Positions 24,601-50,327 of a stretch of DNA of 61,997 bases are shown here, piece after piece (within the stretch, counting starts at the first letter, position 1; every line of letters starts with the position of its first letter). The position numbers and the translations under genes were made by a program. Origin of the DNA: a virus. The notes below the pieces were generated by a model. It saw nothing but the letters and a program-made list of their open reading frames with translations. It was not told the origin of the DNA and made no database searches. The stretch covers positions 1 through 61,997 of the IMG/VR virus record IMGVR_UViG_3300035661_000067. One strand, 5' to 3'.

Positions 24601-27588
24601 CTGCGCCTCGGCGCGGCGCGTGGCGGCATCCAACTCGCCCACCAGGTGGCCGAGGGTGCTGTCATTGCGGTATTTGGCGAGCGTCTTGCGCTCTTGGTCC
24701 GTGAGGGCATGCTCCAGCCGGTAGGGCTTGTCGGCCTCGGCGGGTGGGACGGGCGCTTTCGGCGGGGCCTTCGGGCCGCCTTCGCCCACCGGGGGCGCGG
24801 CGGGAGGCGGCGGCGTGTTGGTCTGGGGCTTCTTCGGGGCTTCCGCAGCGGGGGGCGGGGTTTCGGGCTCCAGATAGGGCTCGACCTGCTTGAGAAGGTT
24901 CGCGGCGGCTTTGCGAACCCGGTCGCCAGCGATGGAATCGGCGGGATGGATGGTCAGGTTGCGACGAAGGCCCTCGGCGGCCGACTTGACCGCCTCTTCC
25001 GGGGTGGAGAAATACTGCCGGTGCGCGCTTCCGCCAGAGCCTCCGCTGTGGCCGGGCAGATCCCAATTCAGGTTTGAGGTCCAGCCCTTGCCTTCATGGT
25101 GGATGGGCGTGAGGGTGACGTGCGCCTTGCCTGCCTTGTCTGCAGTAAACTTGATCGGGGCCACGTTCTCCGGCGTCGGCGCGGCGATGGTCGCCGGGTC
25201 GGGGCGCTTGGCGCTCTGCTGATCTGGGGGCAGCTTGTCATGGGCATCCATCACCAGCTTTGCCAGAGCCTCGGGCGGCATGGTGGTCAACTGCTCATGC
25301 GTGACCGAGATATGGGTTTTCCCGCGGCCCGCCGTGGCAATGATCGCGCCGATTTGGTCCGTGGAATCGCGCCCGCCCGAAACCTGCCAGTCCTCGGGGA
25401 GGTGCTTCGCCAGGTTGCGAATCCCAACGGCATGGGGCTTGGTGTCGTCGGGCTTGATGTAGTGGTCGGCGCCAAAACCGGGCTTTACTGCCGGTGCTGC
25501 AGGCTCGCCTCCGGGACCGGCGTCAGGAGCAGGCTGGCCTGCAGGATTGCCCTGGTCACTCTGCGGCGCGGCAGGTCCGCCAGTGTCGGGTTGACCCGTG
25601 CTGCCTTGATCCACCGAAGCACCGCCTTGCGGCGCTTGCGGCTTAGGTGCCCCATCGCCTCCAACAGGAGCAGGGCCTGCTTCATTTCCCGGATCTTGTG
25701 TTTCATCAGGAGCCTTCGCGGGTTTCGGGGGGGACTCGGTCTGAGGCTTGACGTTGGTGAAGTCCGGCTTTGGCCGAGAGGTCGAGCCAGAGCCCGGCTT
25801 CGGGGGCAGGGGTTGGACCATGAAGCCGCCATCGACAGCGATGATCTGGAAGGCATCGCCAGTCAGGCCATTGGCCTTAGCGCCCTTAGCCGCCTGCTTG
25901 GCAGTCTCGAAGGGTATGCCGCCCTTCTTGCCGAACGGGGGCGGGGGCTCGGGGGCCTTGGTTTCGCCCGGGGCGGAGCCCGGAACGTGGAATGTCATGG
26001 TCTGCATGTCGGCATGCGAGATGATGCTGTCCTTGCCATCATCGAACCGGAATTGCGGGCCGTGGGGCGTGTTCTTCACGAACTGGACGTTGACGTTCGT
26101 GCCATCAGGCATACGCGCGGTGAATCGCTCGCCGGTCTTGGCGTCATCCCCCGTTTCGGGGTGCTTGAAGTTCATGTCGGGCGCAGCACCAGCCGCGCCG
26201 CCCATGGGGCCAGATCCAGCGCCGGGGCCTGCGGACGGGCCTGCGGACGGGCCTGCGCCAGGCGCAGCGCCGGGGCCGCCAGAAGGTTGCGCGCCGGGGG
26301 TAGAGGGGCTACCACCCGGCAGCGCGCCCCCAGGTGCAGCGGGGGGAGGTGCCGTGCCGGGGGGAGGGGTTTGGGGTTGCGCTTCGCCCTTGCGGGTCAG
26401 GGCGCTCACGCCAGCACCAAGGCCGGAAATGCCAACCGTGGCAAGCATGGTCTGGACGATGGTATCCCGGATTGCCGCAGGCTGTTCCGCGAGGAAGTCC
26501 TTCATGGGCTTGTCGGGGTTCAGCGAAGCATAGGCATTCATGTTCTGGAACAGGGTCGTGGCGACCTCTGTCGGCACTTCCGTCATAAGCTGGTGCATCA
26601 GGATCTTGCCAAAGCCAGACCCTTCCACGATGTCGCCAAGCAGCTTGTGGACCGGGATTTTCTCGAACAGGCCCTCAGCCAGTGCATCTACGCCGCCATA
26701 GAGCAGCGATGCCGCATCAGACTTGCCCGCCTTCTCGGCCTCGCCGACAGATTGGCCGCCTTGTTGGATCATCCCGGGGGCAAGAAAGGTCGCAGCGACG
26801 GCCGGCGTGGCCGCGCCGCCAGACAGGATCGAGGCAAGGATGCCGGGTGCCATGGTCCCGATCGACTGCGCCGCACCCTGAACTTGCTCGCCGATCCATG
26901 TGTCGGGCTTGCCAGCGACCCACTCCTTGGTCCTGCCGGCACCTGCGGCCTGCTTCTGCAGCCATGTCTTGGCGTCGTCCAGCCCTGCAAGGCCGGCCAT
27001 CGCACCCATGATATTCCACGAGGCTTCGCTGAACGCAGGGGCTGCCGATGCGATGCCGCGCGGGACCGTCCCCAACGCATCCATCGCATCGCCCACAAAG
27101 CCCTTCGGGGGCGGGGGCGGGCGACCGCCTGGGTTCAGTTCATCGGCCAGTTGGTAAGCGCGCGACATGATCTGCGAGGTCAGCGATGGATCTGCGTTCG
27201 GGCCGAGAACCTTGGCAATGGCCTCTTCGGGTTTCATCCCGCCCTTGAGAAGCGGAGAAAGGACCGATGCAGCATGCGTAGCTGCCTGCAGGGCTTCATC
27301 CTTGTTCGATGCCCCGCCGACCTCGCCGATGGACATCAGGAGGTTGATCGGAACGCCGCTCTGGCTGCTGAGTGCGCCCATAGCGTTCAGGTGGGGGTCG
27401 TTCTGGGGCATGCCTGTCGCTGCAGCACCGCCCAGCGATGAAGGGCCGGTCGGCTGCGGCTGTTGCGCGCTCGGAGTGGTCTGGGGGGCTTGGGGGGGGG
27501 CAACACCGTTGCGGGCGTCGATCTTGGCCTGCTCTTCGGCAAGCGCCGCATCCACCGGATTGCGGCTCGTGTAATCAGTCCCAGCCAC
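9685..27588 (-). CDS. giant polyvalent protein (DarB/DdrB-like), 5,967 residues
   Basis: One uninterrupted ORF starts at GTG 27588 after AAAAGGGG. Regions in order: weak lysozyme-like segment (66-150); hydrophobic patches (240-400); C5-methylase-like domain with TPCTTFS, Cys 1220 (1140-1340); InPase-like polyvalent domain with DYGYIKG and DHVDVYVG (1404-1536); DdrB/ParB-like domain with SGNGR (1652-1656); LPD1 with HEWVH (2457-2461); N6-methylase with NPPF (3010-3013); Strawberry-notch-like SF2 helicase with GVGKG (about 3690), DEAH (3823) and GRIHRTG (about 4219); second metallopeptidase-like HELLH (4870-4874); PLxRFG motif (about 5275); LPD38-like membrane-rich C-terminus. Low-complexity Pro/Gly linkers separate the domains. 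Polyvalent proteins are known to be packaged and injected with DNA to counter host defence. The position between internal-virion genes and lysis fits that. Domain calls come from motifs read by eye. Confidence 0.93.
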   Translation of the reverse strand: MAGTDYTSRNPVDAALAEEQAKIDARNGVAPPQAPQTTPSAQQPQPTGPSSLGGAAATGMPQNDPHLNAMGALSSQSGVPINLLMSIGEVGGASNKDEALQAATHAASVLSPLLKGGMKPEEAIAKVLGPNADPSLTSQIMSRAYQLADELNPGGRPPPPPKGFVGDAMDALGTVPRGIASAAPAFSEASWNIMGAMAGLAGLDDAKTWLQKQAAGAGRTKEWVAGKPDTWIGEQVQGAAQSIGTMAPGILASILSGGAATPAVAATFLAPGMIQQGGQSVGEAEKAGKSDAASLLYGGVDALAEGLFEKIPVHKLLGDIVEGSGFGKILMHQLMTEVPTEVATTLFQNMNAYASLNPDKPMKDFLAEQPAAIRDTIVQTMLATVGISGLGAGVSALTRKGEAQPQTPPPGTAPPPAAPGGALPGGSPSTPGAQPSGGPGAAPGAGPSAGPSAGPGAGSGPMGGAAGAAPDMNFKHPETGDDAKTGERFTARMPDGTNVNVQFVKNTPHGPQFRFDDGKDSIISHADMQTMTFHVPGSAPGETKAPEPPPPFGKKGGIPFETAKQAAKGAKANGLTGDAFQIIAVDGGFMVQPLPPKPGSGSTSRPKPDFTNVKPQTESPPKPAKAPDETQDPGNEAGPAPVGGDGAPKPQAPQGGASVDQGSTGQPDTGGPAAPQSDQGNPAGQPAPDAGPGGEPAAPAVKPGFGADHYIKPDDTKPHAVGIRNLAKHLPEDWQVSGGRDSTDQIGAIIATAGRGKTHISVTHEQLTTMPPEALAKLVMDAHDKLPPDQQSAKRPDPATIAAPTPENVAPIKFTADKAGKAHVTLTPIHHEGKGWTSNLNWDLPGHSGGSGGSAHRQYFSTPEEAVKSAAEGLRRNLTIHPADSIAGDRVRKAAANLLKQVEPYLEPETPPPAAEAPKKPQTNTPPPPAAPPVGEGGPKAPPKAPVPPAEADKPYRLEHALTDQERKTLAKYRNDSTLGHLVGELDAATRRAEAQMRSKGHAIDNFDAQGQHKTTKEWNQEATLIREAEDIAKRLIEEARAAKTGDLPEPKFDEGTGEFDSDGSAVADAMDFLQNFESNGVNTDTVNGAPKGEPMAEADVPHMDPKDVFPERKGTVSIEAKAAKDGYIPQAEADAKLAAWKQVAKDIGKTGKNAGKIIISLFDYSGQWSQPWRDAGYQVIQHDIKIGSKIGLDQWINDQIAERRAEGYEVYGVLAATPCTTFSGAGARWWEPLHDIQTPEALVKVFGEAALASGAKSPLEYNIMLVNETRRIIEESNPTGFHVLENPVGRIEEKAGMPAPTVRFHPHNFGDPYTKRTQLYGMFQTDLPTANVDPVEGSKMQSKLRGTDPLGKEARSTTPFGFSYAFFMANDPQARERMGEKPAADDNHANPNPTPAQAEAGNYQMKHIKVHGLDISIETEKAGTRKGTSPDGKEWSVTLAADYGYIKGTVGKDKDHVDVYVGPNPESKLVVVVDQNDLATGKFDEHKILMGFDSASEALKVYEAGFSDGKGEARVGGIKTMEVAELRALLPHTPAWKKPISSNYTEGDAAKKPGIQHFNLHSHDKVTTPQGRVVKVDYGVVSLDDLVISNDDDGRVNKAYPSELQPRDRSHPSAMLQVQRMATNLNPEFMGEGPEAGPGAPIVSKDGVVESGNGRMMALRRAYVENGKSAEAYRAWLKAKGYPVHKSMKNPVLIRLRTTEMDTATRIAATKEYNERTNLGMTVSETAMADAGQIQAAHLALYRGGDLDSAGNRDFVRQIIKDVIGENDAIGMIGSDGSISQAGLLRIQAALLAKAYGSPDLIKTLMEASDTNIKAIGGALTDVAGEWAKMRAQAAEGVISPHADMTPALMEAVQLVDRARRAGRPITDFVNQTDMFAAGGTVSDEAKDFLSLLFNDVVKWTKPASRERIGSALAFYVQEMGKTQAEADMFGHTANPRDVLKMAKGAQDGTKGQGGLFDKPTGGPSAPQGDGGNTSGDGGNREKPSGGPAVAPEGGEPEKPPVIIDPPAVDAPQDANPKPEEPPEKIDDFGGKIEGARKHLFGQFVRAIGADLDIATNPLGKTFPPIDAAALAQGGAIHDTIAVILSIRRQIPLKPQGRTNKYKLARWVNHVSAARKLAKDLLDGTRQVWDGPDLDADIRNHIKDYEDNTGSGLLSFGLVRDGATPQEQELLATYQLNRVIQYKMDPITKSYVLVPSDDGKTKVRAREPDTYFLANGPHYSNGRGLYIDTMAEVQARALAEVRKIIDQQALDEAMKPEGEGGDTTVPKEREIRLSVKSETFERDAKGISTTKTYGIWSSNDENSPIIVGGFETYQAARDYITANEEELRNKVRALRVGPREHRLENRERSGMKRREGNVSTADFEKAFGLRVEFGASRNNDQRQLDLNRAYDAFMDLAGMLGIPSQAIAVLPVDGKTLGIGFASRGRGGRGAAAAHYEQLEVVINLTAGNGSGSLAHEWVHALDNYLAREAASKGGVSAAAKPKDKQRTDFASDRGETNNKGLGDGLAKALQHFALTLKQGPWHQRNIAFDTYRKVAYWGTTIEETARAFEAIFTLALQTYGMSNDYLVNIDTASGAYPAAKELQKSGTIAAAREVMREVGKLLNPDGKAAPDMPKRTETLTGMKIGDTWASPKGERKIVSIEDRGAMLPMMVGVSTAGGKPEVMEDDIADGKRETDAYLMSPQAALDQAKFEADTKRVMEEARAAEDKKAALKADYDAFTAIYGPMSYEFDGALLYGIRVDGKMQTPQEFIHDKLDEGWRLLPDGNNKAIVTFKGPKGNSYNTRTAAFPKKVTYPYIKWKIAQMEAEQALLEAVAPKPADANPTVPKMVQTLIDTFSKRLVDGDGFHNILVARKVAAEALDRPLADEEYKLVEEALEAAVVITARHIISQGKSPAETYTALVDLYARQPLLAQRTSTSLRNQAYSTPAPLAYLASQLAGITEDTTVYEPTVGNGMLLIGADPAKTTANELDPARAARASYALGSFMTKISVGDAMEHQGPASVDVVIANPPFGKVMDDAGNETRFNAPGLAGGGQTTEIDHAIALRALQSMKKDGRAVLIVGGQSPTLTGSDRAQAYSQARQRRFWNTIYDQYNVVGHFTVAGSLYARQGAQWPVDVIVIEGRGESKLVLPMSEAPPIITSWTDLEGGLNGPRSLDTRRQLGGSGNSAGQPDNADDPGAAQGGAGKPNRPAGGEGRPAGGDQSAPGFGDSAGQGGGTAGPGGNPVAQPGQAPGNVGQPDGSGSDQAGGSGSTSRSAGTGGRPAGGDAGQLPPGSGALSDQDAQDLLNDIFSDLGIEPEAGGAGAPPNEPPPPDALAAPDDNPFTSKDDAGAKKAAKALGGNQDLLDQDPKDLAAKANRYERFKLIEAQRGALAALRAALPKGVEAGVFVQPGSVRLGVYPAGIPWAMFASVDASSYHANSNATLLEEAGAWVAEQEEKANKPKDKKPPKDKLKDKPNEPPKDPAQKPLIRDAAGNIITETGAGFLDGLAGLVNMLNNPSRLNSGLGFDEEDYQRAKPQFLAMLKHFGNAASSIKDLMRALVQALKDIGLSNEGLQRLMGQLTRLAQELASGAAKIVWDTSERVNNEQETDFQVQYTPRSGAAYAVGTLIPVNMQYAMNRALDRIEQKYGKIDTFVAKELGYSEAELTGNGAPDGKGRFSAEQIDALAMAIDNVKDGKGFIIGDQTGVGKGRVVAGMIRYARKNGITPIFVTKTPGLYLDMIRDLTDIGEGDSIPEILATNTDLTGKNILRVDPDDPNSPKVESLGKPALAKAMQNMRDGLGLPQGKTVLFTTYSQLQEGGDGTTLRQEAVMGLAENSMFIMDEAHEAGGDGETTNKETGITKKSRGRILREMLATSKHGTLYSSATFAKNPDVLSLYFKTDMSLVPGDLAGLLSEGGVPLQQISANLLVEAGQYIRRERSYAGVKIDSRTLKTNSAETHAALGAVRAVFMADEEHMQDVRTAYIKNLQKGGHGAVGQGGAVGSQSATSKTFSSMIHNIVGQVLLAAKSDAAIQDAIEAWKNGEKPIIALANTNDSIISEYAEDLGLSAGDAINITFNDIILRYLQRLRRIGFKDKVTEVVTYHYITDAEVVAHGGQAALRALKDAERTIRAAATGSMSASPIDKLKAGLEAAGMKVGEITGRGSMIHDGKLKNMPNSQALKAKAMAGYNSGALDALIINSSGSTGFSLHATATPRNDGKPRYMRVLQPDANIDVFMQMLGRIHRTGQIHLPRYSIGASDLAIEQRVVAQLMRKMASLNANTTAAKDSAVTMKNVKDFLNRYGDIVVNQWLAENVDQGLELGFAHGKKPEPGLASRLTGRLAVVADAVARKIYEDFDIAYTAIIAEMDRLGTNTLEAKTLNLEAETLSKTILSPSVGTSPFQREAVSEIVKANVLAKPYTEAELKDRIAKILDGKKPEMWALEQMTDIRAGFPAATATANASLAMWQGRLAVAKTDAQKRDANAGIKKAEDRLAEAHSILKDQERLALTWKPGASAFLIRDEGNGKTTRIPAISLGIDMSRAEGNAFQQSKMTLRLAVADSMREFEVPVSRLIAGKTEDVAYQPEPSTVSPHAIIAAFANQSSVSREDRTILTGNLVAGFKAFEKGQIMRFTRMDGTVSDGILMPKSFDTEAALRDMPVQFSTIPQVISFLNLDGKDGKPVQTMVVTSDSVITITHSMSSWGARNNRYSVILNTQGGRPYATNKQITSLVGDFNSRSGRPTYEAKIIYPDKFEEFLRLIQSIGGVNFESRAHKDEARTITGAVPPGTKARKGEGGAHHFSERGIDFKENDPLIEAEIPGELPMTKAEEVNLRARLLAELKRVGAAALRLNVAPHWITEAGDEIYGMFYGAERKIWTSWGQKHGALAVLRHELLHWARDQTIWNGAQYGAFTAEEWRALVSAARMDVATMAWVKKAYDGLPYAWQVEEVIADRYMAFTGRKDSPGGPLSRAYHKFTNIIHGIINVLRGRGYINEAMIFEKLFDGSLAERAVKGEKQVFGYGFLSEESVASAMRMRRPITQEYERTMLSKLLTQAMSLGSSTLLSAVPGRALFTELGRKMPSAENYQKLKDKMDKLRSEWWTRTDEVARRWRYIMSQNKNANVKLMDLMHEATIAGQDPSQPYEPKASPEDYARVQNQTGTPGQMAAATERVQADRAAKARYDALVPKYRALPGAFKHMFNKVRDEYVAMSQAYERAIIANIAKAMNISLRSAERAHADEMRRIQDDGLIGGERAQAMDRANARLDKARRNHGDGARARAFALRKMFESNRVEKPYFPLTRFGKFFVTTRNAQGKVTAFNMFESVWARDKFANATAAETGIKPQTGVIGESEIRGMVDPTFVSDIEQILAGVDTPKVVMDAIWQRWLETLPELSIRRNRLHRNATAGFSSDAFRAFGKAAFHGSHQLAKLSYALDLQDALVEAEREAKNSSEPTRNGLIVQEMMRRHQGTMAPKGSALSQLATSAVFLYFMAFSPGTAIVNISQTTIVGIPILGSMPGANMRQASAQIARASLDFTRGKGHAVNSSRLTDDEKTAMEFAYASGLIDKSRAHDLAGIEAHGTEFRDWRSKIMAAASLMLHHTERMNREITFLAAYRMARINAAPAVGANGGPTVRGNHDAAVNAAMSATWKTHFDYQNDARPRLTQGNVARVVTAMKNFQINMLWRLARDLHQMTRGESPEARKEARRTFFGISASLMLHAGISGVWMFGAACMIWGLLTGAPQSEVKDHFKSDVVSVFGEKMGAAVFYGIPQAVTGLSLSSRIGMPDLWFRDDSRPAEGEALYQQWLAQSVGAAPTLVENMLMGAQDISNGDYERGIEKMLPVAARNVMKAARYAMEGATTKNGDPLVDTVTTPQVIVQALGFTPAEIAEQNELNSLAYNKQQEIQDEKSAIVKELATAVLSHAAITPEIRAKVDAFNAAHPSYPITSEGIVASAKLRAKHHANNQGGAELIPGLDAEIRAGLSPQIMD

Positions 27589-35607: not shown

Positions 35608-35879
35608 GCGCCTCCTTCTTCAAGGTCATAGGCTGTAGTCGTGGCGCTGGCTGTGCCATCATCGAAGTTATAAACCCCGGTGCCGCCCCCACCGCCACCG
35701 CCACCGCCACCGCTGCCTCCGGCATAGGAAAGCGAGTTCCATGCGGTCACGCCGTCGCCAAATTTCCACTGCAGGGTGTCCATTTCCAGCCCGAGTTCTC
35801 CAGCGAACAGGACAGGGTTCGCAGCGGTCCAATCGGCCGCCGTGAAATGCCATTGCCACTGTCGCTGGTAGGAGGTCAT
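35604..35879 (-). CDS. short fibre-anchor protein with Mtd-like domain
   Basis: The 91 residues contain ADWTAANPVLFAGELGLEMD, KFGDGVTAWNSL, the same domain type as the N-terminus of the following fibre. A 10-Gly hinge and a short acidic tail follow. It seems to be a free-standing adaptor between tail and fibre, or a remnant of a split fibre. ATGA overlaps occur at both ends, so it is co-translated with both neighbours. Confidence 0.7.
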   Translation of the reverse strand: MTSYQRQWQWHFTAADWTAANPVLFAGELGLEMDTLQWKFGDGVTAWNSLSYAGGSGGGGGGGGGGTGVYNFDDGTASATTTAYDLEEGGA

Positions 35880-36394
35880 GCTGTGCCGAAGTTAGGGGTC
35901 AAAAGGTTTCCAGATCCGTCCACCCATGTCGGGGCCACGAAGGAGCCATTGACATCGGTCAGGTAGTGCTGCGCCGGATCTGCCACATTCCCGATGCCGG
36001 ACCCATAGTAGTTGCTAAGCGTCTCATTTGCATCACCATAGGTAGTGATCTCGGCATCGAAGGTCATGACGCGGCCCCGGTTAGTTGTCGCGGCGATCTT
36101 GAGGGTAAAAGTCGTGGCATCGAGGCCCTGATCAACGAAGGCGACCACGCCATACTTGGCGAAGCGGACCCATGTGCATGGCATGTTCACGTCATCGCTG
36201 GATTCGCCGGTTGCCGCAACCACTTCCTCGCCCGGCGCCAGCCGCAGGGACAGATCCACGGAATAGTCAAAGTGTTCCGCCGACCGTTTCGTGAAGGGCT
36301 GGGTGTCGCCCTGAGCCTGATCCCATCGGATGCGCCGCTTGTTGTAGCGGGGGAAGGACGATTCCGGCATGGTGAAGCCATTTTGAACGGTCAT
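35876..36394 (-). CDS. tail adaptor-like beta protein, paralogue of 38323-38841
   Basis: The 172 residues read as a beta-rich domain with YSVDLSLRLAPGEEV, WVRFAKYGVVAFVDQGLDATTFTL and RVMTFDAEI. The spacing resembles the protein at 38323-38841 and phage fibre-tail adaptor (gp77-like) families. It probably links fibre proteins to the tail hub. The family name is a moderate-confidence recollection. Confidence 0.6.
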   Translation of the reverse strand: MTVQNGFTMPESSFPRYNKRRIRWDQAQGDTQPFTKRSAEHFDYSVDLSLRLAPGEEVVAATGESSDDVNMPCTWVRFAKYGVVAFVDQGLDATTFTLKIAATTNRGRVMTFDAEITTYGDANETLSNYYGSGIGNVADPAQHYLTDVNGSFVAPTWVDGSGNLLTPNFGTA

Positions 36395-38322: not shown

Positions 38323-38841
38323 CTATGCCGAGATCAGAACGTTGTTCACATCAGCATACATGGGCTCAAAGATCGTGCCCATGACATCTGCGAGGTAGCT
38401 GTTCTTCGGATAGGAGGTGTCGGCGGGCGGCGAAACAACGGCAGTCGAGGTGCCGGTGACATCAAGCGTCACCTTCCACTGATAGGCGCGCTGCAGGTTG
38501 GTCTGGGCATGCAGGCTCAGGACAACGCTCGTGCCATCCACACCGCCCGACACGTTGGCATAGACGCCCCGGTCGGCGAAGCGGCAGGTTGTCACCTCCA
38601 TCAAGGTGTCGTCAGTCCACGCATAGGCCGCGAGGATCGCCTCGCCATCTTCAAAGGCCAGGGTGCAATCCACGGAGAAGTCCGTGATCTCTTCAGCGGC
38701 GACATAGAGGATAAACTCATCCTCGGGGGCCAGGTTCGCAGGAATGCGGCGGCTGCGGTCGGTGGGGAAGTCACCCTCGTCAATCGGTGTCCCGATGACC
38801 GCGATGCTAGAAATACTGACCACGAGATCGGGAAGGGGCAC
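38323..38841 (-). CDS. fibre-tail adaptor-like protein
   Basis: The 172 residues are beta-rich: FILYVAAEEITDFSVDCTLAFEDGE, TCRFADRGVYANVSGGVDGTSVVLSLHA, KVTLDVTGTS. The same layout and length occur in the protein at 35876-36394, so the two look like paralogues. GTG at 38841 is chosen because GAGG lies about nine bases upstream; it overlaps the preceding gene by 35 bases. Confidence 0.6.
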   Translation of the reverse strand: MPLPDLVVSISSIAVIGTPIDEGDFPTDRSRRIPANLAPEDEFILYVAAEEITDFSVDCTLAFEDGEAILAAYAWTDDTLMEVTTCRFADRGVYANVSGGVDGTSVVLSLHAQTNLQRAYQWKVTLDVTGTSTAVVSPPADTSYPKNSYLADVMGTIFEPMYADVNNVLISA

Positions 38842-41448: not shown

Positions 41449-42543
41449 TTACGGCGTCGGCGAGGACGTATCCACGGCCACCAGGCCGAAGTCCTTGCCG
41501 TTGTAGCGGGTCTTCTTGATCCCGACGATCATGCCAGCGGCCACGGTGGGCTCGTTGCCATAGTCTTCGAGCTCTTCTTCCCACATCATCCGGGTGCCGT
41601 TCGGGGTGCCGTAAGCGATGATGCCAGCCTGGCGGCCCATGAATAGGGCGCGCGAGGCGGGGAGGTTGGCGCCAGCACCGTAGTCGGAGAAGCGGATCAC
41701 TGACTTGTGGCTGTGCAGGATAACGCCGCCAATCATACCCAAGGAGCCCTTGAACATCTTGTCGTTGTCGCCATTCGCGGCCGCCGCAGCCTTCTGGATT
41801 TCGAGCCAGCCGGTCGCGCCAGTCGCAGTTTTCATGCTGTATTCTTGGAACAAACTCATCAACAGGATGTAGCGGGTTTCCCCGTCCATCGTGACCGGTT
41901 CCAGGTTGGAAGCGGTCGGGTCCAGCGCGCGGATCATGCCCACGTTCACGTTCACCTTGACCACCAGGTCGCGCGACATCAGGTCGCCGGCCACCATGGA
42001 AGCCTTGGAGGTTGCCGCGCCGCCATACATCAGGTGGGCGGTATCCGGGGCCTGCACGGGGTTGTTGGCGAAGCCGGTATAGGTGATCGGCTCATAGAAG
42101 TCCTGGTTGATGCCACGCGCACCCGACAGGTAAACGAAGGTCACTTGGTCGATGTATTCCGACCAATAATCGCCCAGCTTGTCGCGGGCCAGCTTGCGGA
42201 GATCATGCGCGGTGCGCTTCCGGGTCATCCGACCACCGGCCGAGACGCTGTGGCGCAGTTGGTCGATGCGAACTTCGTCGCTGTAGAAACGAAGGTTCTC
42301 TTCGCGGCCCTTGAGGCGGTTGTCGCCGGAGGTCGGGGTGCCCTTCAGTTGCACCGACAGGTCGAACTGGATGTCATCGCCAGCGTCCGACTGCAGTTCG
42401 GTCTTCTGCTGGATGATGGAGTTGTCGTCGGTGCCGATGAACTTCTTGGAGAAGTATTGCTTGGACAGCATGTCCGAAGCGAGCAGGCTGGACCAGCGTT
42501 TGATTGCGCGGGCATCACCAAACGGAACAGTGGTGGCGGTCAT
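41449..42543 (-). CDS. major capsid protein, N4-gp56 family
   Basis: The 364 residues match the N4-gp56 (DUF4043) capsid family. The N-terminus is PFGDARAIKRWSSLLASD, then SKQYFSKKF, DDIQFDLSVQLKG, RLKGREENLRFYSDEVRIDQLRHSV and RRTAHDLRKLAR-type segments, and the C-terminus is FGLVAVDTSSPTP. The order scaffold, capsid, adaptor is standard. GAGGGA lies ten bases before the ATG and contains an AGGGA motif that could be a CsrA-type site. Confidence 0.93.
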   Translation of the reverse strand: MTATTVPFGDARAIKRWSSLLASDMLSKQYFSKKFIGTDDNSIIQQKTELQSDAGDDIQFDLSVQLKGTPTSGDNRLKGREENLRFYSDEVRIDQLRHSVSAGGRMTRKRTAHDLRKLARDKLGDYWSEYIDQVTFVYLSGARGINQDFYEPITYTGFANNPVQAPDTAHLMYGGAATSKASMVAGDLMSRDLVVKVNVNVGMIRALDPTASNLEPVTMDGETRYILLMSLFQEYSMKTATGATGWLEIQKAAAAANGDNDKMFKGSLGMIGGVILHSHKSVIRFSDYGAGANLPASRALFMGRQAGIIAYGTPNGTRMMWEEELEDYGNEPTVAAGMIVGIKKTRYNGKDFGLVAVDTSSPTP

Positions 42544-42647: not shown

Positions 42648-42839
42648 CTATGGCGTTCCGGGTTCGGCGTCCGACCGGGCGCGGAGGCCGCCATCGGCTC
42701 TCACATGCTGAATCAGGACATCGAGGGGCGCGGCGATTTCCAACCTGAGTTGACCAGCGCGCGATCGGATGCAGGTCAGGACAGTCTCCTTGTCCACCCT
42801 GATCTGGTCGCCGGGTTTCAGGTTCAGAAACAAAGACAT
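42648..42839 (-). CDS. CsrA-like small protein
   Basis: The 63 residues follow the carbon-storage regulator CsrA fold: a first strand and turn LNLKPGDQIRV, then ETVLTCIRSRAGQLRLEIAAPLDVLIQ, which matches the V..I....GQ(V/L)R(L/I)..AP.(D/E)V core. CsrA is a dimer that binds GGA motifs near ribosome sites. The usual RNA-contact residues are altered: the TRR pair reads NLK and Arg44 aligns with His. It may therefore have lost or changed RNA binding. It lies between scaffold and capsid genes, so capsid translation is a natural target. Confidence 0.7.
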   Translation of the reverse strand: MSLFLNLKPGDQIRVDKETVLTCIRSRAGQLRLEIAAPLDVLIQHVRADGGLRARSDAEPGTP

Positions 42840-42860: not shown

Positions 42861-43793
42861 TCAGCCTTCAAAAGCGCCGTAGGCTTCGCGCTGATCCTTG
42901 GTCATGCGAGCCAGCGCGCGCTCGTGCTGCTCGATCTTCCCTTGGTCCAGAAGCCGGTTCAGGGCCTGCCAGCGGTCGCCGTCCGTATCGTTCGTCGCTG
43001 CCGCAGGGATGCGGGCCAGGGTTGGGATGGGCTCGGCGCGGATCGGCTCCGGCTTGGCGGCGGGATCGGCCGCTTTGGCCTTCGGCGCGGGGTTCTTCGC
43101 GGTCAGCGGGGCAAGGGCCGGATCGCCGACATCGAGGGCGTAGAGCGTCTGCGCCTTCTCAAGCTGCTGGGTGAACGTCATCTTGGCGTTCTTGGGGTCT
43201 GCAGTGACCAGTTCCACGAAGCGGTTGTAGCCAGGCAGATGCTCCGGCCCGAAAAGGCCCGGTGTTGCGGTCTTCACGGCGGTCACGGCAGCGAGGAAGG
43301 CGGCATCTCCCGATGCCTTGGCGGTCTTGATCGCCTCGGCGCGGGCGTTCTGCTCGTCCTCATACCGGCCCTGATCCTTGGCGATGGCCTTGATTTGCGC
43401 CTTGTAGTCGGTGTCGCTGATCTCGCCATCATCGAACAGCGATTGGAGGGCGGCTTCCTTGGTCGCCAGATCGGCCAGCTCAGCGGTGCGGTCCACCCGT
43501 TCCGGGATCACCGGGGGCAGTTGCTCGGCAACGGGGGCCGTGGCGGGTGTGGCGGCAGGCTCGGCCTTCACCGGGGGCAGGACGCCGGTTTTGGGGTCGA
43601 TCACCGGCTCGGCGTCCGGGTCATCTGGGTCATACGTGTCGGGTTCGCTGTCGCCCTCTTTCAGCGCCGCGCGTTCTTCCTCGGACAAGAGCGATTCATC
43701 GAGTTCGCTGCTCTTGCCCTCATCTGGGTCAGCCAGCGCGGTGTCGATGTCGGGGTCTTCGTCATCAAGCAGGTCTTCGGGGGTCTTCGCCAT
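42861..43793 (-). CDS. capsid scaffold protein
   Basis: This 310-residue protein has a very acidic N-terminus (DEDPDIDTALADPDEG, DSEPDTYDPDDPDAEP), Ala/Pro linkers, helical middle (TAELADLATKEAALQSLFDDG, YEDEQNARAEAI) and a basic C-terminal helix (QHERALARMTKDQREAYGAFEG). Acidic, helical proteins between portal and capsid genes are scaffolds that guide procapsid assembly and leave later. No protease domain is seen. Confidence 0.8.
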   Translation of the reverse strand: MAKTPEDLLDDEDPDIDTALADPDEGKSSELDESLLSEEERAALKEGDSEPDTYDPDDPDAEPVIDPKTGVLPPVKAEPAATPATAPVAEQLPPVIPERVDRTAELADLATKEAALQSLFDDGEISDTDYKAQIKAIAKDQGRYEDEQNARAEAIKTAKASGDAAFLAAVTAVKTATPGLFGPEHLPGYNRFVELVTADPKNAKMTFTQQLEKAQTLYALDVGDPALAPLTAKNPAPKAKAADPAAKPEPIRAEPIPTLARIPAAATNDTDGDRWQALNRLLDQGKIEQHERALARMTKDQREAYGAFEG

Positions 43794-43915: not shown

Positions 43916-46216
43916 TTATTGCGCCATCTGGGGCGCGGGTTGGGGCGCGGAGGGTGCGCCAGGGGGGGGTGCTGCGGCTGTCGGAGGTGTCGCACCCATC
44001 GGGATGGGGCCTGCGGAGGGCGGAAGCGCACCTTGCGGGATGCCCTGGGGAAGCCCGCTCGCCTTGTATCCAGCCTCTTTGAGCAAGGCATCGCTGACCG
44101 GCGCGGCCTGCGGGACGGAAAGCATCTGGAACGCGACCTCCATCGCCTTCTGAAACTGTTCGAGGCTCATCGACACGGCGGCCTGGTGCAGTCCATCGGT
44201 TTCGGTCTTGGCCTTGCCGGCAGCGGCCGCCTTTTGCATCGCTCCGGCCTCGTCCAGCCCGACCTTCGCCATGAATGCGCGCTTCTGCATGTCGGCCTGT
44301 TCCTTCTTCGCGGCATCGGCGGCCTGCTCTTCTGGGCTCGGCGGCACGTTCGGATCGGCGTCGGGGTCTTTCTGGCCCGTCTCCTGCCGGATGCGTTTCA
44401 CGATCTCGTCACGGTTTGGCATATCGGACTGGTCGATCAGAAGGTCCATGATGAGAAGGGCGAACTGTGGGGCCACGGGGGCCACGGCCTTAATCATTTC
44501 CACCGTCGCATCGAACTGCGCCTGCCGCGCGGTCGCAGTCCAAGCCTGTTCGGTGATGATGAAGTCGGCCTTGGTGCGGCAGATGTCGTTCTCGGGCAGT
44601 CCATCGTTGATGGTCACGTGCTGCGGGACACCCCGGCTGTTCGTGATGCGGAACTGCTTCTCTTCGGTGAGGAACTGCTCCATCAGGCTCAGCATCTTCT
44701 GCCCGTGGATGCGGCGCGCGAAGGACAGGTTGTCCAGCGGCTCAGCCGTCACCAGCCCACCTTGGTCCTGCCGGGCGGTGATGGCCTTGCCCGATGTCGC
44801 GTTGGTGGTGCGGCCCATGTTTTCGTCGGTCACGCCGCCGACCTGCTGCACCATTTGGATATTGCGGGACATCAGATCCACGAAAGATGCGGCCAACTCC
44901 CGATCGACATTGATGACCAACTCCTTGCCGGGGTTCTTCACGATGATCGCGTCGGGCCGGGCGACCTCTTCTTCAAACTCATCGAGATCATCCACCGCGC
45001 CCTTGTCCATGATGGTCTTGTTCGTGGATAGGACGTGCTGTGCCTTCGAGGCGGCGTGGTTGATCTGGGTCTGCAGGCTGCGGAGGTTGCGGATCATGCC
45101 GTAGGACTCTCCATCGGCGGCCTTCCGGTAGCAGAAGATGGGCGTCAGCCCGAAGCGGTTGTGGCGATAGGGGCTCTCCTGGAAGTGCAGGATGCCTGCC
45201 GAGGTGAAGATCGCCACGTGCATCCGCATCTTTGTGCGGGTTTCGAGCGATGCTACACCCGTGTCCAACTCGTAGGTATGGCCCTCGCTGTCGGCGTCGA
45301 AGATTTCCCCGGTGAACTGCCCGCCCGACATCACATCAGTCTGGCAGGGCTTGCGAAACCAGCCTTCGATCAGCCGGACGCGGGACCGGGCCGAGGCGAT
45401 AAACCCGGAATTGCTGCTGTGATGGTTGCTGCCGTAGATGGTCTGGGCATTCTCTGCCTCGTCGCTCCACTCGTCGCCGAAGTGGTCGCCGGACCCGATG
45501 ATGCTGTGGTCGGAAGATCGCGCCCGGTCAATGGCTTCCTTCGCCCCAGGGTAGGTCGCATGCGCCACATCCTCATCCACCCACTTCATGCGGAAGAGAT
45601 AGCGAGCATCGGAATAGTCCTGCTCGCGGCTCAGGCTGTCGCGGATGATGTTGCGCCACGATTCCGCCCGGTCATAGACGGGCTCGCCCTCGTCGTCGCG
45701 CTGCCACCCCGATTCCACCCAGCCCTCGCCGCTCTTGATCGCGTCGGCATAGGCTTGGGACATGGCGAACTCACTGTTGTTCGCGTCGGCCAGGTATTTC
45801 ATCAGTTGCGTCTTGCGCTGGGCGGCCTGTGAGCCTTCCTTGCGGCGGGGGAGAATCTTGTATTCCGTGCGCCCGCGCCGCTCCGTGCCGATCATCCAGT
45901 TCAGCGTCGTGGCGACCACATTGTAGTTCGTCGCGTCCTGCCCGCGCGCCTTGAGGGTTGCCTTTTCCTCTTCCGACCATGGGTCGTTGTCGTAGAATCG
46001 CTCGTCGGTAGCCTTCTCGGCCCGCCAGTTAGCCTGAAACTCGATCTCGCGCAGGTAATGCCCAAGCAGGGAGCGATGCAGCACCTCCGCCTGGTGCGAC
46101 CGCAGGTCTGGGACCATGATCGCGCCGCCGCTGTGTCCGATGCCCGGCATGGGCCGAGAGCCCCGCTTGTAGGGGATGATGGTCTTGGCGCCCGCCGTGT
46201 TCCCGAGGTCATACAT
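43916..46216 (-). CDS. portal protein
   Basis: This 766-residue protein has portal features of the large podovirus type: WRAEKATDERFYDNDPWSEEE, then TLNWMIGTERRGRTEYKILPR, AYADAIKSGEGWVESGW, RMKWVDEDVAHATYPGAKEAIDRA, RNLRSLQTQINHAASKAQHVLS. A helical, Pro/Ala-rich C-terminal tail forms the barrel. The ATG at 46216 is preferred over an upstream in-frame ATG at 46330 because the conserved part starts here and it overlaps the previous gene by only eight bases. It forms the 12-fold ring for DNA packaging and tail attachment. Confidence 0.9.
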   Translation of the reverse strand: MYDLGNTAGAKTIIPYKRGSRPMPGIGHSGGAIMVPDLRSHQAEVLHRSLLGHYLREIEFQANWRAEKATDERFYDNDPWSEEEKATLKARGQDATNYNVVATTLNWMIGTERRGRTEYKILPRRKEGSQAAQRKTQLMKYLADANNSEFAMSQAYADAIKSGEGWVESGWQRDDEGEPVYDRAESWRNIIRDSLSREQDYSDARYLFRMKWVDEDVAHATYPGAKEAIDRARSSDHSIIGSGDHFGDEWSDEAENAQTIYGSNHHSSNSGFIASARSRVRLIEGWFRKPCQTDVMSGGQFTGEIFDADSEGHTYELDTGVASLETRTKMRMHVAIFTSAGILHFQESPYRHNRFGLTPIFCYRKAADGESYGMIRNLRSLQTQINHAASKAQHVLSTNKTIMDKGAVDDLDEFEEEVARPDAIIVKNPGKELVINVDRELAASFVDLMSRNIQMVQQVGGVTDENMGRTTNATSGKAITARQDQGGLVTAEPLDNLSFARRIHGQKMLSLMEQFLTEEKQFRITNSRGVPQHVTINDGLPENDICRTKADFIITEQAWTATARQAQFDATVEMIKAVAPVAPQFALLIMDLLIDQSDMPNRDEIVKRIRQETGQKDPDADPNVPPSPEEQAADAAKKEQADMQKRAFMAKVGLDEAGAMQKAAAAGKAKTETDGLHQAAVSMSLEQFQKAMEVAFQMLSVPQAAPVSDALLKEAGYKASGLPQGIPQGALPPSAGPIPMGATPPTAAAPPPGAPSAPQPAPQMAQ

Positions 46217-46664
46217 CTGCCTTGATGTCCTTTTCGATGACCTCGCCCGTCGCAAGGTTCCTGAAATGAGACGCGCCCACGATAAACTTGTCGAAGTTCT
46301 GCGGCATGGGAGGGCACATGAGCAGATCATCGAGCAGGTCGTGGATCACGGTCGCCACCTTCCGCGCGCTCGCGGGGGTCGCACTGAGCCCGAGGTCATT
46401 GGCGAAGAGCATGGACTGGAACGCGACGTGCGGGATGTCGCGGAGGCGCTTGTCCTCCGACCACGCCCAGGCGGTCAGGTCTTTGACCACGCAAGGGGTG
46501 ATGGTGTCGAAGTGCAGGAGGCGAAGGGTCGGGATCAGTGCGAGGCAGGGGCGCTGGTCGTCAAGGGTCCACGTGATGATGGCGGTGATCTCGCCACGGA
46601 CAAAGGTCGCATGCCGCTTGGACAGGTCCAGAAGTTCGCGGGCGACGGGTCGGTTCTCATACAT
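46209..46664 (-). CDS. hypothetical protein upstream of portal
   Basis: This 151-residue protein is of unknown function, with a hydrophobic strand FVRGEITAIITWTLDDQRPCLALIPTL and a helical middle (ARKVATVIHDLLDDLL). It lacks signal or membrane segments and overlaps the portal gene by eight bases. It may be a packaging accessory. Confidence 0.55.
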   Translation of the reverse strand: MYENRPVARELLDLSKRHATFVRGEITAIITWTLDDQRPCLALIPTLRLLHFDTITPCVVKDLTAWAWSEDKRLRDIPHVAFQSMLFANDLGLSATPASARKVATVIHDLLDDLLMCPPMPQNFDKFIVGASHFRNLATGEVIEKDIKADV

Positions 46665-46726
46665 GGGGGTCTATCCCTAGTGGGCTTCGGCATTCATGCC
46701 ACGAAATGGCCTGTGGGTCCACCAGA

Positions 46727-46927
46727 TCAGGTGGATTGGCGGGCGATGCGTTGCATGGCTTCCTCGCGGGCCTGCATCAGAGCGTTCTCGACGGCCGCCA
46801 TGACGCTCTTGTCGGTGCCGGCCATGCTGATCCTGCAGGTGAAGGGCGGGCCGAACGGCATCGCATAACGGAGGGCGACATCAGTCAGTTCAGGGTCGGG
46901 CGGCAGGTTGGGATGCGGTAGGGTCAT
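46727..46927 (-). CDS. small hypothetical protein
   Basis: This 66-residue protein has a beta-type start and an Ala/Arg-rich C-terminal helix (MAAVENALMQAREEAMQRIARQ). ATGA coupling to the preceding gene supports a real gene. Function unknown. Confidence 0.5.
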   Translation of the reverse strand: MTLPHPNLPPDPELTDVALRYAMPFGPPFTCRISMAGTDKSVMAAVENALMQAREEAMQRIARQST

Positions 46928-47214
46928 TTGGCCTCCAGTGCAGCGGCGATCCCGCCTTCGATGATTTCAAGGGCCTTCCGCGTCACGTTCTCGCGCAGCT
47001 TTCCCGCGATCTCGATATGCTTTGGGACCGGCGATGTCGTCCAGTGGGTGGTGACGCCCATTGATACGCCCTGGACCTCCCACTCGATGAAGACGTTGTT
47101 GTGCTTGGTCAGGGTCGGCGGCTCCCAGACCTGAGAGGTGCGCAGCCGGTCCAGTTCGGTCATGTCTCCACGCCCGAGGCTTTCGATCAGCCGGTGAAGG
47201 GATTGCAGGGTCAC
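46924..47214 (-). CDS. small hypothetical protein
   Basis: The 96 residues form a helix (LQSLHRLIESLGRGDMTELDRL), a beta part (NNVFIEWEVQGVSMGVTTHW) and a final helix. It shares ATGA overlaps with both neighbours. No family recognised. Confidence 0.5.
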   Translation of the reverse strand: MTLQSLHRLIESLGRGDMTELDRLRTSQVWEPPTLTKHNNVFIEWEVQGVSMGVTTHWTTSPVPKHIEIAGKLRENVTRKALEIIEGGIAAALEAK

Positions 47215-47492
47215 ATCCGCCTCCTGATCTCTTCCGCCCGCTTGGTCGCCTTCTCCACCACGGCGCAGGCCAGCACCTCCAGCGCCAGGTGATCGACACT
47301 CGGCCAGACGCCTTCGAGGTGGATATTCGTGCCATCCGGCATCTGGAAGGTGCAGAACATGGACGTGCAGAGCGGGCCTTTGCGCGTCTCCTCGCCTGGG
47401 GGCTGGGTGAACGGGGCGATTCCTGCGGCCTTGTTGGCCTCATCGACGGCCTCGCGCTTCGCTTCCTTCTTGTAGCGGTCGATGGGCCTCAT
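47211..47492 (-). CDS. small hypothetical protein
   Basis: The 93 residues have a basic helical N-terminus (MRPIDRYKKEAKREAVDEANKAAG), two Cys (LCTSMFC) and a C-terminal basic helix. It overlaps neighbours by four bases on both sides. No family recognised. Confidence 0.5.
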   Translation of the reverse strand: MRPIDRYKKEAKREAVDEANKAAGIAPFTQPPGEETRKGPLCTSMFCTFQMPDGTNIHLEGVWPSVDHLALEVLACAVVEKATKRAEEIRRRM

Positions 47493-47767
47493 TTGCCCTT
47501 CCCCCGGCTCCGCCGCTGCTTGCGCTTGCCGTCGCGCCGCACAAAGACGGTGGACAGGTCAAACTCCACCTCGGGAGGCATTGGGGCCTGTATCGGCGAG
47601 CCAAGCGCCACCCTGAACCATGCCTTGATGCGCTGCCAGCGGGTCGGCGGGGTTCTGATGAACCTCTTGCTGAAGTAGGATTTGCTCACCGTATCCATGG
47701 CGAGAGCCTTCGCCCATCGGTCGATGCCGGCCTGATCCCCGAATGGCTTGTGTTCCGGGTTCGTCAT
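47489..47767 (-). CDS. truncated paralogue of the capsid N-terminus
   Basis: Residues 8-37 (PFGDQAGIDRWAKALAMD, SKSYFSKRFI) align with capsid residues 7-36 (PFGDARAIKRWSSLLASD, SKQYFSKKFI) at roughly half identity and the same spacing, and VEFDLS echoes the capsid IQFDLS. The other residues are a basic tail (RRDGKRKQRRSRGKGK). Only the N-terminal arm region of the N4-gp56 fold is present, so it cannot form a capsomer. The ATG at 47767 overlaps the previous stop, and an ATGA overlap follows at the end, so it is a coupled gene, not debris. Confidence 0.7.
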   Translation of the reverse strand: MTNPEHKPFGDQAGIDRWAKALAMDTVSKSYFSKRFIRTPPTRWQRIKAWFRVALGSPIQAPMPPEVEFDLSTVFVRRDGKRKQRRSRGKGK

Positions 47768-48021
47768 GCTTTTGCTCCTTCGGAAAGCCACCCTTGGACG
47801 GTGGCGATGTCTGCTTCGGTCAGGAACATTTCGCGCGCCGAGGCGGCCATCGGCTGGCCTTTCCCGGTGATCTCCATCATCTGCGCCTTGTTGCAGTTGC
47901 GCTTGATGATGTGCGCTGGGTCGCCGGTCAGGGACGCGAAGTCCCATTGCACCTCAAGGGTGCGATCTTCCTGGTTCACGCGGGCGGTGAAAGCCTTGTT
48001 GATGGTCGGGATGATGCTCAT
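47764..48021 (-). CDS. small hypothetical protein
   Basis: The 85 residues have a beta start (NKAFTARVNQEDRTLEVQWDF) and a helical C-terminal half. It is overlapped by four bases by TerL upstream and by the capsid-arm paralogue downstream. Unknown function. Confidence 0.5.
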   Translation of the reverse strand: MSIIPTINKAFTARVNQEDRTLEVQWDFASLTGDPAHIIKRNCNKAQMMEITGKGQPMAASAREMFLTEADIATVQGWLSEGAKA

Positions 48022-49682
48022 AGGACGGACGCTCCAAGGTGGCGGGTTTTGCGGCGGGTGGGGCGCTGCTGGAAGTCCAGAAGCGATGGCTCAAAGCCTT
48101 GCGCGCACTGGCGGATGCTGTCGGCGGCCTCGGTGTGGGGGCTGTCGTGGTCATGCTCGTCGGACCAGACGCCAAGCCGGGTGTTCCACTTCTTCTTGTA
48201 AGCCTGGAGGTGGGTGAGCCCGGCCTCGCAGCCCTTGGCGTCGAACCAATATTGCGAGAACTGGTTGCGGACCATGGTGATGCCATGCGTCAGGGTGTCC
48301 ACGCGCGGCACGATGTGGAACTGCCAGTCAGGGGCCAGCGATTGCAGTGCGTCGAGGGGCCTGCCGACCTTGTATTCAAGCTGGCGCTCGTGGTTGGCGT
48401 CGTGCGGGAGAAACATGCCGCCGAAGAGATAGCCCGTCTCGCGCAGGGTGCGGACATACCACTCGTAGCCATGCCCCCAATTCTCGATGAAGCCGATGAA
48501 CCTGTGCTGGGTGCCGACATACTGGTGCAGCCAGATCGCGGTTCCATCGCCCGAGCCGATGTCCCAGAACGTGTTGACCCGGATCGAGGGGATGTGCGGC
48601 ACGATACCAATCCGTCCGGCCATGCGGGATTGGGCAAGCTGGACAGCATACCATGTGCCTTCGGTCGATTTCTGCCAGCACTCGGCGGGGGTCGAGGGAT
48701 ATTCTCGCCACATCTTCTCCACGTCGCCCGAGAAGTCATTGTCGCGCATCGACACGTAGTAGGCGCGCTGCCAGAGGTCGAGGTGAACGTTCATGGTCGC
48801 CTCGACGGTGGCGAAGTAGGCATGATCGGCGTCGGTCATCGACACATGTGCCGGGTTCGTCCGGTAGTTGGGCTCGATGAACCACGGATAGAACTTGAAC
48901 GCCCATTCCTTCTGCCCAAGCTGGCGCGGCGCGGCCTGCAAGGACTGGTGCAGCACCTCGGCGCGGTGCGCGATGTCGTAGAACGCGCCCTCTTGCCCCT
49001 CGGCGGTCGATTCAATGACGGCGATCTGGTTCTGAGGCACGGCAGGCAGGGAGCCGGTGATGATCTCCACGGCCTTCTGAGGGAACTTCGCGGCGATCTT
49101 GCCCATTTCGCTGATATGCAGCCGGTGGATGGTGCCGGAGCGCATCGAGGTCGCCACGCGGATGCTGGAGTTGTTGTGCGCCCAGAGCAATTCCTTGGTG
49201 GTCTTGCGCCCGAGTGGCGTCATAGCCTGGAGGAAGTCGGGCAGATGCTCGTAGGCGAACAGCACCTTGTCTCGCAGGATTTCAGCGGCGGGGTCCATGT
49301 GATGGGCGATGATCCCGACACGCTGGTTGGCGTTGAAGAGCGCATGGTCTGTCCAGCACAGCGCAATGGCGGTCGTGAATCCAAGCTGCCGGGCCTTGAG
49401 TATCACCGTGCGGTTGTGGAGATTGGTCAGGAAGTCCTGTTGCGCGGCGTTCGGCACGAAGGGCGCGATGGTGCCCGGGTCTCCGTCATCCTCACCCTTG
49501 ATGAGGATCTGATAGAGCCAGCCTGAGCCCAGCCGCCACTCGACACTGCCGAGGCAGTCGGTGATGTCCTGCTCGCTGGATGGGATGAAGTGCGCCGCGA
49601 CATCAGTGACTGGGAAGACCGAGGGAAGCACCAGCTTCGCGCCCGCCTTGCCAGTGATTGCACCGAGGCCAGACATCAGCAT
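48018..49682 (-). CDS. terminase large subunit
   Basis: In this 554-residue ATPase-nuclease, the Walker A variant KARQLGFTT is at residues 96-104, Walker B HISEM at 189-193, and the coupling motif ESTAEG at 224-229. The nuclease part begins TFWDIGSGDG with acidic Asp374 and Asp379. It pumps DNA into the prohead through the portal and cuts it. GGAG lies six bases before the ATG. Confidence 0.93.
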   Translation of the reverse strand: MLMSGLGAITGKAGAKLVLPSVFPVTDVAAHFIPSSEQDITDCLGSVEWRLGSGWLYQILIKGEDDGDPGTIAPFVPNAAQQDFLTNLHNRTVILKARQLGFTTAIALCWTDHALFNANQRVGIIAHHMDPAAEILRDKVLFAYEHLPDFLQAMTPLGRKTTKELLWAHNNSSIRVATSMRSGTIHRLHISEMGKIAAKFPQKAVEIITGSLPAVPQNQIAVIESTAEGQEGAFYDIAHRAEVLHQSLQAAPRQLGQKEWAFKFYPWFIEPNYRTNPAHVSMTDADHAYFATVEATMNVHLDLWQRAYYVSMRDNDFSGDVEKMWREYPSTPAECWQKSTEGTWYAVQLAQSRMAGRIGIVPHIPSIRVNTFWDIGSGDGTAIWLHQYVGTQHRFIGFIENWGHGYEWYVRTLRETGYLFGGMFLPHDANHERQLEYKVGRPLDALQSLAPDWQFHIVPRVDTLTHGITMVRNQFSQYWFDAKGCEAGLTHLQAYKKKWNTRLGVWSDEHDHDSPHTEAADSIRQCAQGFEPSLLDFQQRPTRRKTRHLGASVL

Positions 49683-49685
49683 GCA

Positions 49686-50327
49686 TTACTCCGCCGCATC
49701 GAGGGTTCGGTCGGGGTTAACGATCCGTATCGGTGGCCGGCCAGAGCCCAGCGGGCCCATGATCCGCACGGGAAGCGCAGAGCCGCGCGCCAAGAGTTCG
49801 CGGAAGGCATCGGCCAGCGGGTTCGGAGGCACGTTGTTCGGGCCTTCCTTGAAAAGCCCGAGGTGTTTGCCCAGCAGTTCGAGGGCCTTCATCTGGTCGT
49901 AGGGCTTGATCTTGACCTTCTTGACGGTCCTCGCCTCATCGCCCACGCCTTCGATGTAAGTTTCGATGGTGACTTCGGCCAGGGTGTCGATCTGCGCTGG
50001 GGTGACGTTCGCGGTATTCACGCAGAGATCACCACCCTCATTCACCGACACGAAGGCAGACATGCCGGTGAAGGCCAAGAGGCTCAGCCGGTCCACGATG
50101 TCATCGACGGTCTTGACGTGACGGCGCTTCGCATCGCCGAGTCCGGCCTGCAGGGCCGCCGCCACATTATCCTTGCTCATCAAGCGGCTCGCGTTTTGGG
50201 CTGCTCCTGTCGGGGAATAGCCCGCTGCGATGTAAGCCTGGGTCTGGTTCTTACCTTCGATGACGGCCTCAACGAAGAGGCGCTCGCGGACAGTCAGCTT
50301 GATGTTGTCCGCCATGAAAAGGCCCAC
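49686..50327 (-). CDS. terminase small subunit
   Basis: The 213 residues match the TerS family: LTVRERLFVEAVIEGKNQTQAYIAAGYSPTGAAQNASRLMSKDNV, a helix-turn-helix for DNA recognition, then helical oligomerisation segments. The GTG start at 50327 follows AAGGA; an ATG four codons later is the alternative. The stop is followed three bases later by the TerL ATG. Confidence 0.9.
   Translation of the reverse strand: MGLFMADNIKLTVRERLFVEAVIEGKNQTQAYIAAGYSPTGAAQNASRLMSKDNVAAALQAGLGDAKRRHVKTVDDIVDRLSLLAFTGMSAFVSVNEGGDLCVNTANVTPAQIDTLAEVTIETYIEGVGDEARTVKKVKIKPYDQMKALELLGKHLGLFKEGPNNVPPNPLADAFRELLARGSALPVRIMGPLGSGRPPIRIVNPDRTLDAAE

Follow-up and report, generated by a model that had tools for sequence, protein, structure and literature searches.

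A Bcep22-like podovirus carries in its head operon a short gene, P0002, which encodes a free-standing, diverged copy of the N-terminal arm (N-arm) of the major capsid protein (MCP) of the same phage. The whole virus contig, 61,997 bases long, is called the window here. Judged from its sequence, P0002 is a partial MCP paralogue that is restricted to this lineage and sits in an insert of ORFan genes; it can be placed in the broad class of capsid-derived accessory proteins, with a putative function. Four features are firmly supported: its homology, its co-operonic position, its translation signals and its restriction to one lineage. The favoured reading, held with somewhat less than even confidence, is that this paralogue, derived from the MCP of the phage itself, is expressed and that its product would act as a soluble arm. 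A preliminary description had placed a gene of 92 residues at 47489-47767, which is correct; the strand is minus. The head region contains the following genes.

49686..50327, minus strand: terminase small subunit (phrog_51).
48018..49682, minus strand: terminase large subunit (TerL), assigned by synteny and by homology to the annotated TerL of Bcep22-like phages.
47764..48021, minus strand: 85-residue ORFan, first gene of the insert; 4-base overlaps with the TerL stop and the P0002 start.
47489..47767, minus strand: P0002, MCP N-arm paralogue, 92 residues; start codon at 47767, stop at 47489.
47211..47492, minus strand: 93-residue ORFan of the insert; starts at the stop of P0002 (ATGA).
46924..47214, minus strand: 96-residue ORFan of the insert with a GTG start; one residue differs in contig L001.
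46727..46927, minus strand: 66-residue ORFan, last gene of the insert.
46209..46664, minus strand: g151, a conserved gene that relatives also have between terminase and portal; it borders the insert on the downstream side.
43916..46330, minus strand: portal protein, P22_portal family; the listed start is possibly too early.
42861..43793, minus strand: g310, encodes an acidic protein (pI 4.4) and lies between portal and MCP; position and composition alone make it a scaffold candidate.
42648..42839, minus strand: CsrA-like gene, just below the Pfam cut-off.
41449..42543, minus strand: MCP, 364 residues, HK97 fold, N4-gp56/Phage_capsid_3 (PF13252 E=6e-66, TIGR04387 E=9e-69).

The nearest annotated kin of this phage are the Bcep22-like podoviruses BcepIL02, DC1, JC1, Itty13 and POI1126; among MCPs of solved structure the closest comes from Ralstonia phage GP4 (T=9, PDB 8h89) and is 60% identical to the window MCP. 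The head operon runs in the order terminase, five-gene insert, g151, portal, acidic g310, CsrA-like gene and MCP. Relatives conserve the order TerL-g151-portal-g310-(csrA)-MCP. The insert consists of five small ORFan genes (85, 92, 93, 96 and 66 residues) between TerL and g151, and the TerL-portal gap is 1676 nt compared with about 380-500 nt in most relatives. No relatives of the insert genes were found in searches of three of the genes against phages and two against viral contigs. Most Bcep22-like phages have g151 alone between TerL and portal, but several related loci (L009, L061, L060, L117 and L045) carry 1-2 kb of unrelated small genes there, so this region (window 46664-48018) is an insertion hot spot. 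The portal ORF as listed begins inside g151 (46209-46330, minus strand), about 80 residues ahead of the portal profile, and the true portal start is therefore probably further downstream. The CsrA-like gene lies between the scaffold candidate and MCP, as it does in Lessieviruses.

An alignment with statistics, proposed as a check in the preliminary description, is significant. BLASTP of the short protein against its own MCP gives 47.4 bits (E=4e-12; 38% over residues 8-73). Smith-Waterman alignment with shuffles gives p of about 2e-11 for the full-length protein (score 109, shuffle mean 28) and about 6e-12 for residues 1-39 (101, mean 24); none of 2000 shuffles reaches the score. The aligned arm comprises residues 8-37 of the short protein and 7-36 of MCP, and 18 of its 30 residues are identical, which bears out an earlier estimate of about half over some 37 residues. 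The motifs PFGD, RW, SK and YFSK(K/R)FI are common to both proteins, as had been noticed, and a free-standing copy of the MCP N-arm is established by homology. In an all-against-all comparison of the window ORFs, the short protein and MCP form one of just two paralogue pairs. The other pair (35879-36394 and 38326-38841, minus strand; 30% identity, E 6e-15; both phrog_4137) flanks the gene for an internal virion protein. When P0002 was compared with the six-frame ORFs of 20, later about 100, loci, MCPs were the sole convincing matches and scored far above the rest. The short arm is most similar to MCPs from its own clade (the window MCP, L014 and L015, at 0.58), which argues that the arm arose from the phage's own ancestry by duplication within the lineage.

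The copy probably extends beyond residue 37, where the preliminary description had ended it. Past FI(R/G)T the sequences diverge, and the short protein has about eight extra residues. EVEFDLS in the short protein then resembles DIQFDLS in MCP, at the position where nearly all MCPs have (I/V)x(F/Y)DL, the start of the E-loop. EVEFDLST (residues 66-73, probably equivalent to MCP 57-64) aligns with the start of the first E-loop strand of MCP. Statistical support for this second segment is marginal: residues 38-92 alone give p=0.053 against the whole MCP and 0.012 against MCP 37-110, and against 40 MCPs five of 300 shuffles score as well. The copy is probably colinear with MCP up to about residue 73.

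P0002 lacks the HK97 core (P- and A-domains) and matches no family HMM; PF13252 and TIGR04387 give no match at E<=1, and scans of Pfam, PHROGs, NCBIfam and PADLOC give no significant match. By this comparison it is a partial paralogue, not an MCP. The N-arm (the helix and the YFSK[K/R]F block) appears to have been kept in the copy, probably along with the start of the E-loop strand; the P- and A-domains are gone, and a basic C-terminus has been added. Set against the MCPs of GP4 and the window, residues 8-37 match the N-arm and EVEFDLS the first E-loop strand; the P-domain, the A-domain and the rest of the E-loop are absent, residues 38-65 differ, and a tail is added.

The tail (residues 74-92) is basic, as had been described, with a net charge of +9 in the last 19 residues and a pI of 11.4. 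An out-of-frame or DNA-level source for it was sought in MCP and in the rest of the window, and none was found. Such a tail could have taken the protein outside capsid biology: arm helix and tail together would form a small DNA- or RNA-binding protein, or a packaging accessory beside terminase. The charge of the tail and the situation of the gene between terminase and portal are consistent with this exaptation. However, it leaves the retention of MCP-family-specific arm residues unexplained, and it is improbable.

The short gene carries the same kinds of coding signal as its neighbours. It starts with ATG, preceded at 8 nt by a strong Shine-Dalgarno sequence, AAGGAG. Overlaps of four bases (ATGA) link it to the 85-residue gene upstream and the 93-residue gene downstream, so that its described position upstream of the portal in a coupled gene string holds. 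GC1/2/3 is 0.55/0.52/0.82, similar to that of the neighbours, and GC3 is high in both halves (0.79 in the arm and 0.85 in the tail). In start, ribosome-binding site (RBS), frame composition and coupling the gene resembles those around it, and by these signs it is predicted to be protein-coding. A frameshifted or split MCP was rejected, since the full MCP is intact 5 kb away from the short gene. An assembly artefact was rejected as well; an independent contig (L001) has the same gene arrangement.

That contig, 99.98% identical over 6.4 kb, carries the only second copy of the short gene. No free-standing arm was found in 55 whole related records, each of which has one MCP match, or in 13 bacterial genomes with such prophages, in which MCP is the sole good match. 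Among 50,697 phage records, 48 matched, at 48 places, with full-length MCP only and no free-standing arm; 72,556 plasmids contained none. Scans of IMG/VR with the protein and two arm profiles, with ORF checks of all loci, gave no arm gene beyond L001; the first profile (A1) admits FIG only and the second (A4) also admits the FIR of the short sequence. Short N-terminal MCP ORFs in L067, L097, L050 and L081 were rejected, as each is either cut off by the end of its contig or part of an MCP frame interrupted by a stop or frameshift. In L081 (4696-5781) an in-frame TGA interrupts the MCP frame about 128 codons from its start, and the frame is otherwise intact beyond it; the TGA can be read as a sequencing error, a nonsense mutation or recoding.

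The preliminary description therefore stands in so far as it saw a free-standing copy of the N-arm. It had named a lack of conservation in relatives as counting against its reading, and conservation does fail: the gene occurs only in this phage and the nearly identical contig. A conserved head-assembly factor would be present at the same locus in related phages, and the short gene is not. Since it is missing from all relatives examined, assembly of this type of phage does without the short protein. Confinement to one lineage makes a general assembly role less likely; what remains is either an accessory protein peculiar to the lineage or a duplicate that is drifting.

The latter is the main rival to the soluble-arm model. 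An MCP fragment would have entered the terminase-portal hot spot, become fused to random basic coding sequence, and drifted while the frame happened to stay open, with no selected function. This would account for a gene found in one lineage only, in an insert which is entirely ORFan, with a tail of no traceable source and no DNA similarity to MCP; between the short gene and MCP as a whole there is just a trace of DNA similarity. Several near-invariant MCP residues have also been altered: across 81 MCP sequences, T4, A13 and K15 are nearly invariant, and they are replaced by E, G and D respectively in the short arm. The open frame, the intact RBS, the 4-base overlaps and the normal GC3 argue against drift. 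Furthermore, useless DNA seldom persists for long in phage genomes.

The codons of the arm bear on the same question. Of 32 codon pairs, 19 encode the same residue in the short gene and MCP; the codons themselves are identical in 10 of these, compared with 11.2 expected if synonymous choice were fully randomised. Synonymous sites are thus saturated with respect to MCP, and the arm residues have persisted well beyond that point. This also argues against drift, and suggests a maintained protein function. With conserved columns defined as at least 90% across the 81 MCP sequences, the short protein keeps 9 of 12 in the arm and 2 of 10 in the next 30 positions (Fisher p=0.03); the same contrast with the other two cut-offs gives p of 0.057-0.058. 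One replacement event could explain the loss of conserved columns after the arm, and the constraint may, at least in part, date from the time when the arm sat inside a full MCP. A functionless drifting duplicate is, on balance, rather unlikely.

In the soluble-arm model, the short protein would be made late, together with the head proteins, and would compete with MCP for the partner of the arm. The likeliest partner would be the C-terminus of g310 or a neighbouring capsid subunit. Binding would tune or delay assembly, and the basic tail would add affinity for an acidic scaffold or DNA. The acidity of g310 (pI 4.4) and its place between portal and MCP make it the obvious candidate for the scaffold; in JC1 the homologous protein, gp46, was detected in virions at low score (PMC9144972). 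In P22 the scaffold C-terminus is anchored on coat N-arm residues D14/E15/E18 (PMC9965877), and in 80alpha the N-arm helix is touched by a scaffold helix, with SaPI1 CpmB acting as a competitor of the scaffold (PMC5644958). No procapsid structure was found for the MCP clade of this phage, so the arm-scaffold contact is an extrapolation from P22 and 80alpha. In these phages (gp8-gp5 in P22) the N-arm is a docking site during procapsid assembly; the contact belongs to normal assembly, and a free arm protein is not described there.

The GP4 capsid indicates what the altered residues may do. Its N-arm comprises residues 2-47 and its E-loop 48-91; residues 2-15 form part of a quasi-3-fold pedestal, and 14-19 take part in a sheet shared with the adjacent subunit (PMC9698820). 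The short protein differs from MCP at S18 (MCP numbering) as well as at the three near-invariant residues, and it retains the W17/L21/K28-F31/F35 positions. The changes at T4, A13, K15 and S18 fall in the pedestal and sheet segments, as would suit a soluble arm which still recognises a partner without locking into the mature shell; the same changes of near-invariant residues mean that the short protein may fail to bind its normal partner. An AlphaFold model of the short protein places a helix at 12-28 over the arm with low confidence (mean pLDDT 57), and the MCP model has a helix at 11-20. The roles suggested earlier (assembly regulator, plug, or binder of scaffold or DNA) would fit the location in the head operon. 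The soluble-arm explanation as a whole, with its late expression and partner binding, is plausible but stops short of probable.

Known systems resemble P0002 in part. Ccm of SaPIbov5, which redirects phi12 capsids (PMC8569155), is likewise a second capsid-protein homologue beside a normal MCP. However, it is a satellite protein of 355 residues with a complete HK97 fold, and the long extended N-arm that the phage CP has is missing from it; the short protein is the opposite part alone and is encoded by the phage itself. Proteins of the Ccm type have a complete HK97 fold and form shell pentamers, whereas the short protein has the N-arm and possibly the first E-loop strand only. CpmB (SaPI1) and Rcm (SaPIpT1028) are small scaffold mimics whose proposed site of action is where scaffold and MCP meet (PMC5644958, PMC12409344); they are likened to P0002 by role. 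They mimic the scaffold side; the short protein would mimic the capsid side, its soluble N-arm titrating scaffold or capping neighbouring arm sites and so timing assembly or sabotaging co-infecting relatives. Such capsid-side mimicry is possible, though less likely than not.

The phage might instead use the logic of SaPI Ccm and CpmB for competition: a free arm tolerated by its own MCP would poison or divert head assembly in satellites or related phages that infect the same cell. Redirected assembly is known to result both from homologues of capsid protein and from scaffold mimics (PMC8569155, PMC5644958, PMC12409344), and presence in a single lineage fits an arms-race gene. No separate promoter-like site was found for the short gene, however, and from within a late head operon it would act late and in every infected cell, which makes a competition factor rather improbable. 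Late expression would also coincide with that of MCP rather than precede it, as would be needed by a decoy, a free arm which occupies a host sensor of capsid protein without triggering it. Capsid proteins do activate two defence systems, CapRel and a TIR system (PMC9712102, PMC11312562). The link of any sensor to the short arm is conjectural, the protein has no defence-related match, and a decoy is very improbable.

No free-standing capsid N-arm was described in the literature searched, which takes in few subscription journals. To our knowledge, no earlier known phage encodes an isolated N-arm of its own capsid protein; if functional, P0002 would be the first known case. It would then also provide, in natural and minimal form, a reagent for the scaffold-arm contact with which procapsid assembly begins in HK97-fold viruses, and would show that partial duplication can make capsid genes a source of small regulators. 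If it does act as a capsid-side mimic, it would mirror CpmB and other scaffold mimics, and no such protein was found described. If it is not functional, it gives a clear view of how a gene is born when part of another is duplicated in an insertion hot spot.

The largest open frame in the window is 9688-27588 (minus strand; 5967 residues). The related phage JC1 has a large protein, gp69, annotated as a DarB-like antirestriction protein, and is a candidate for comparison.
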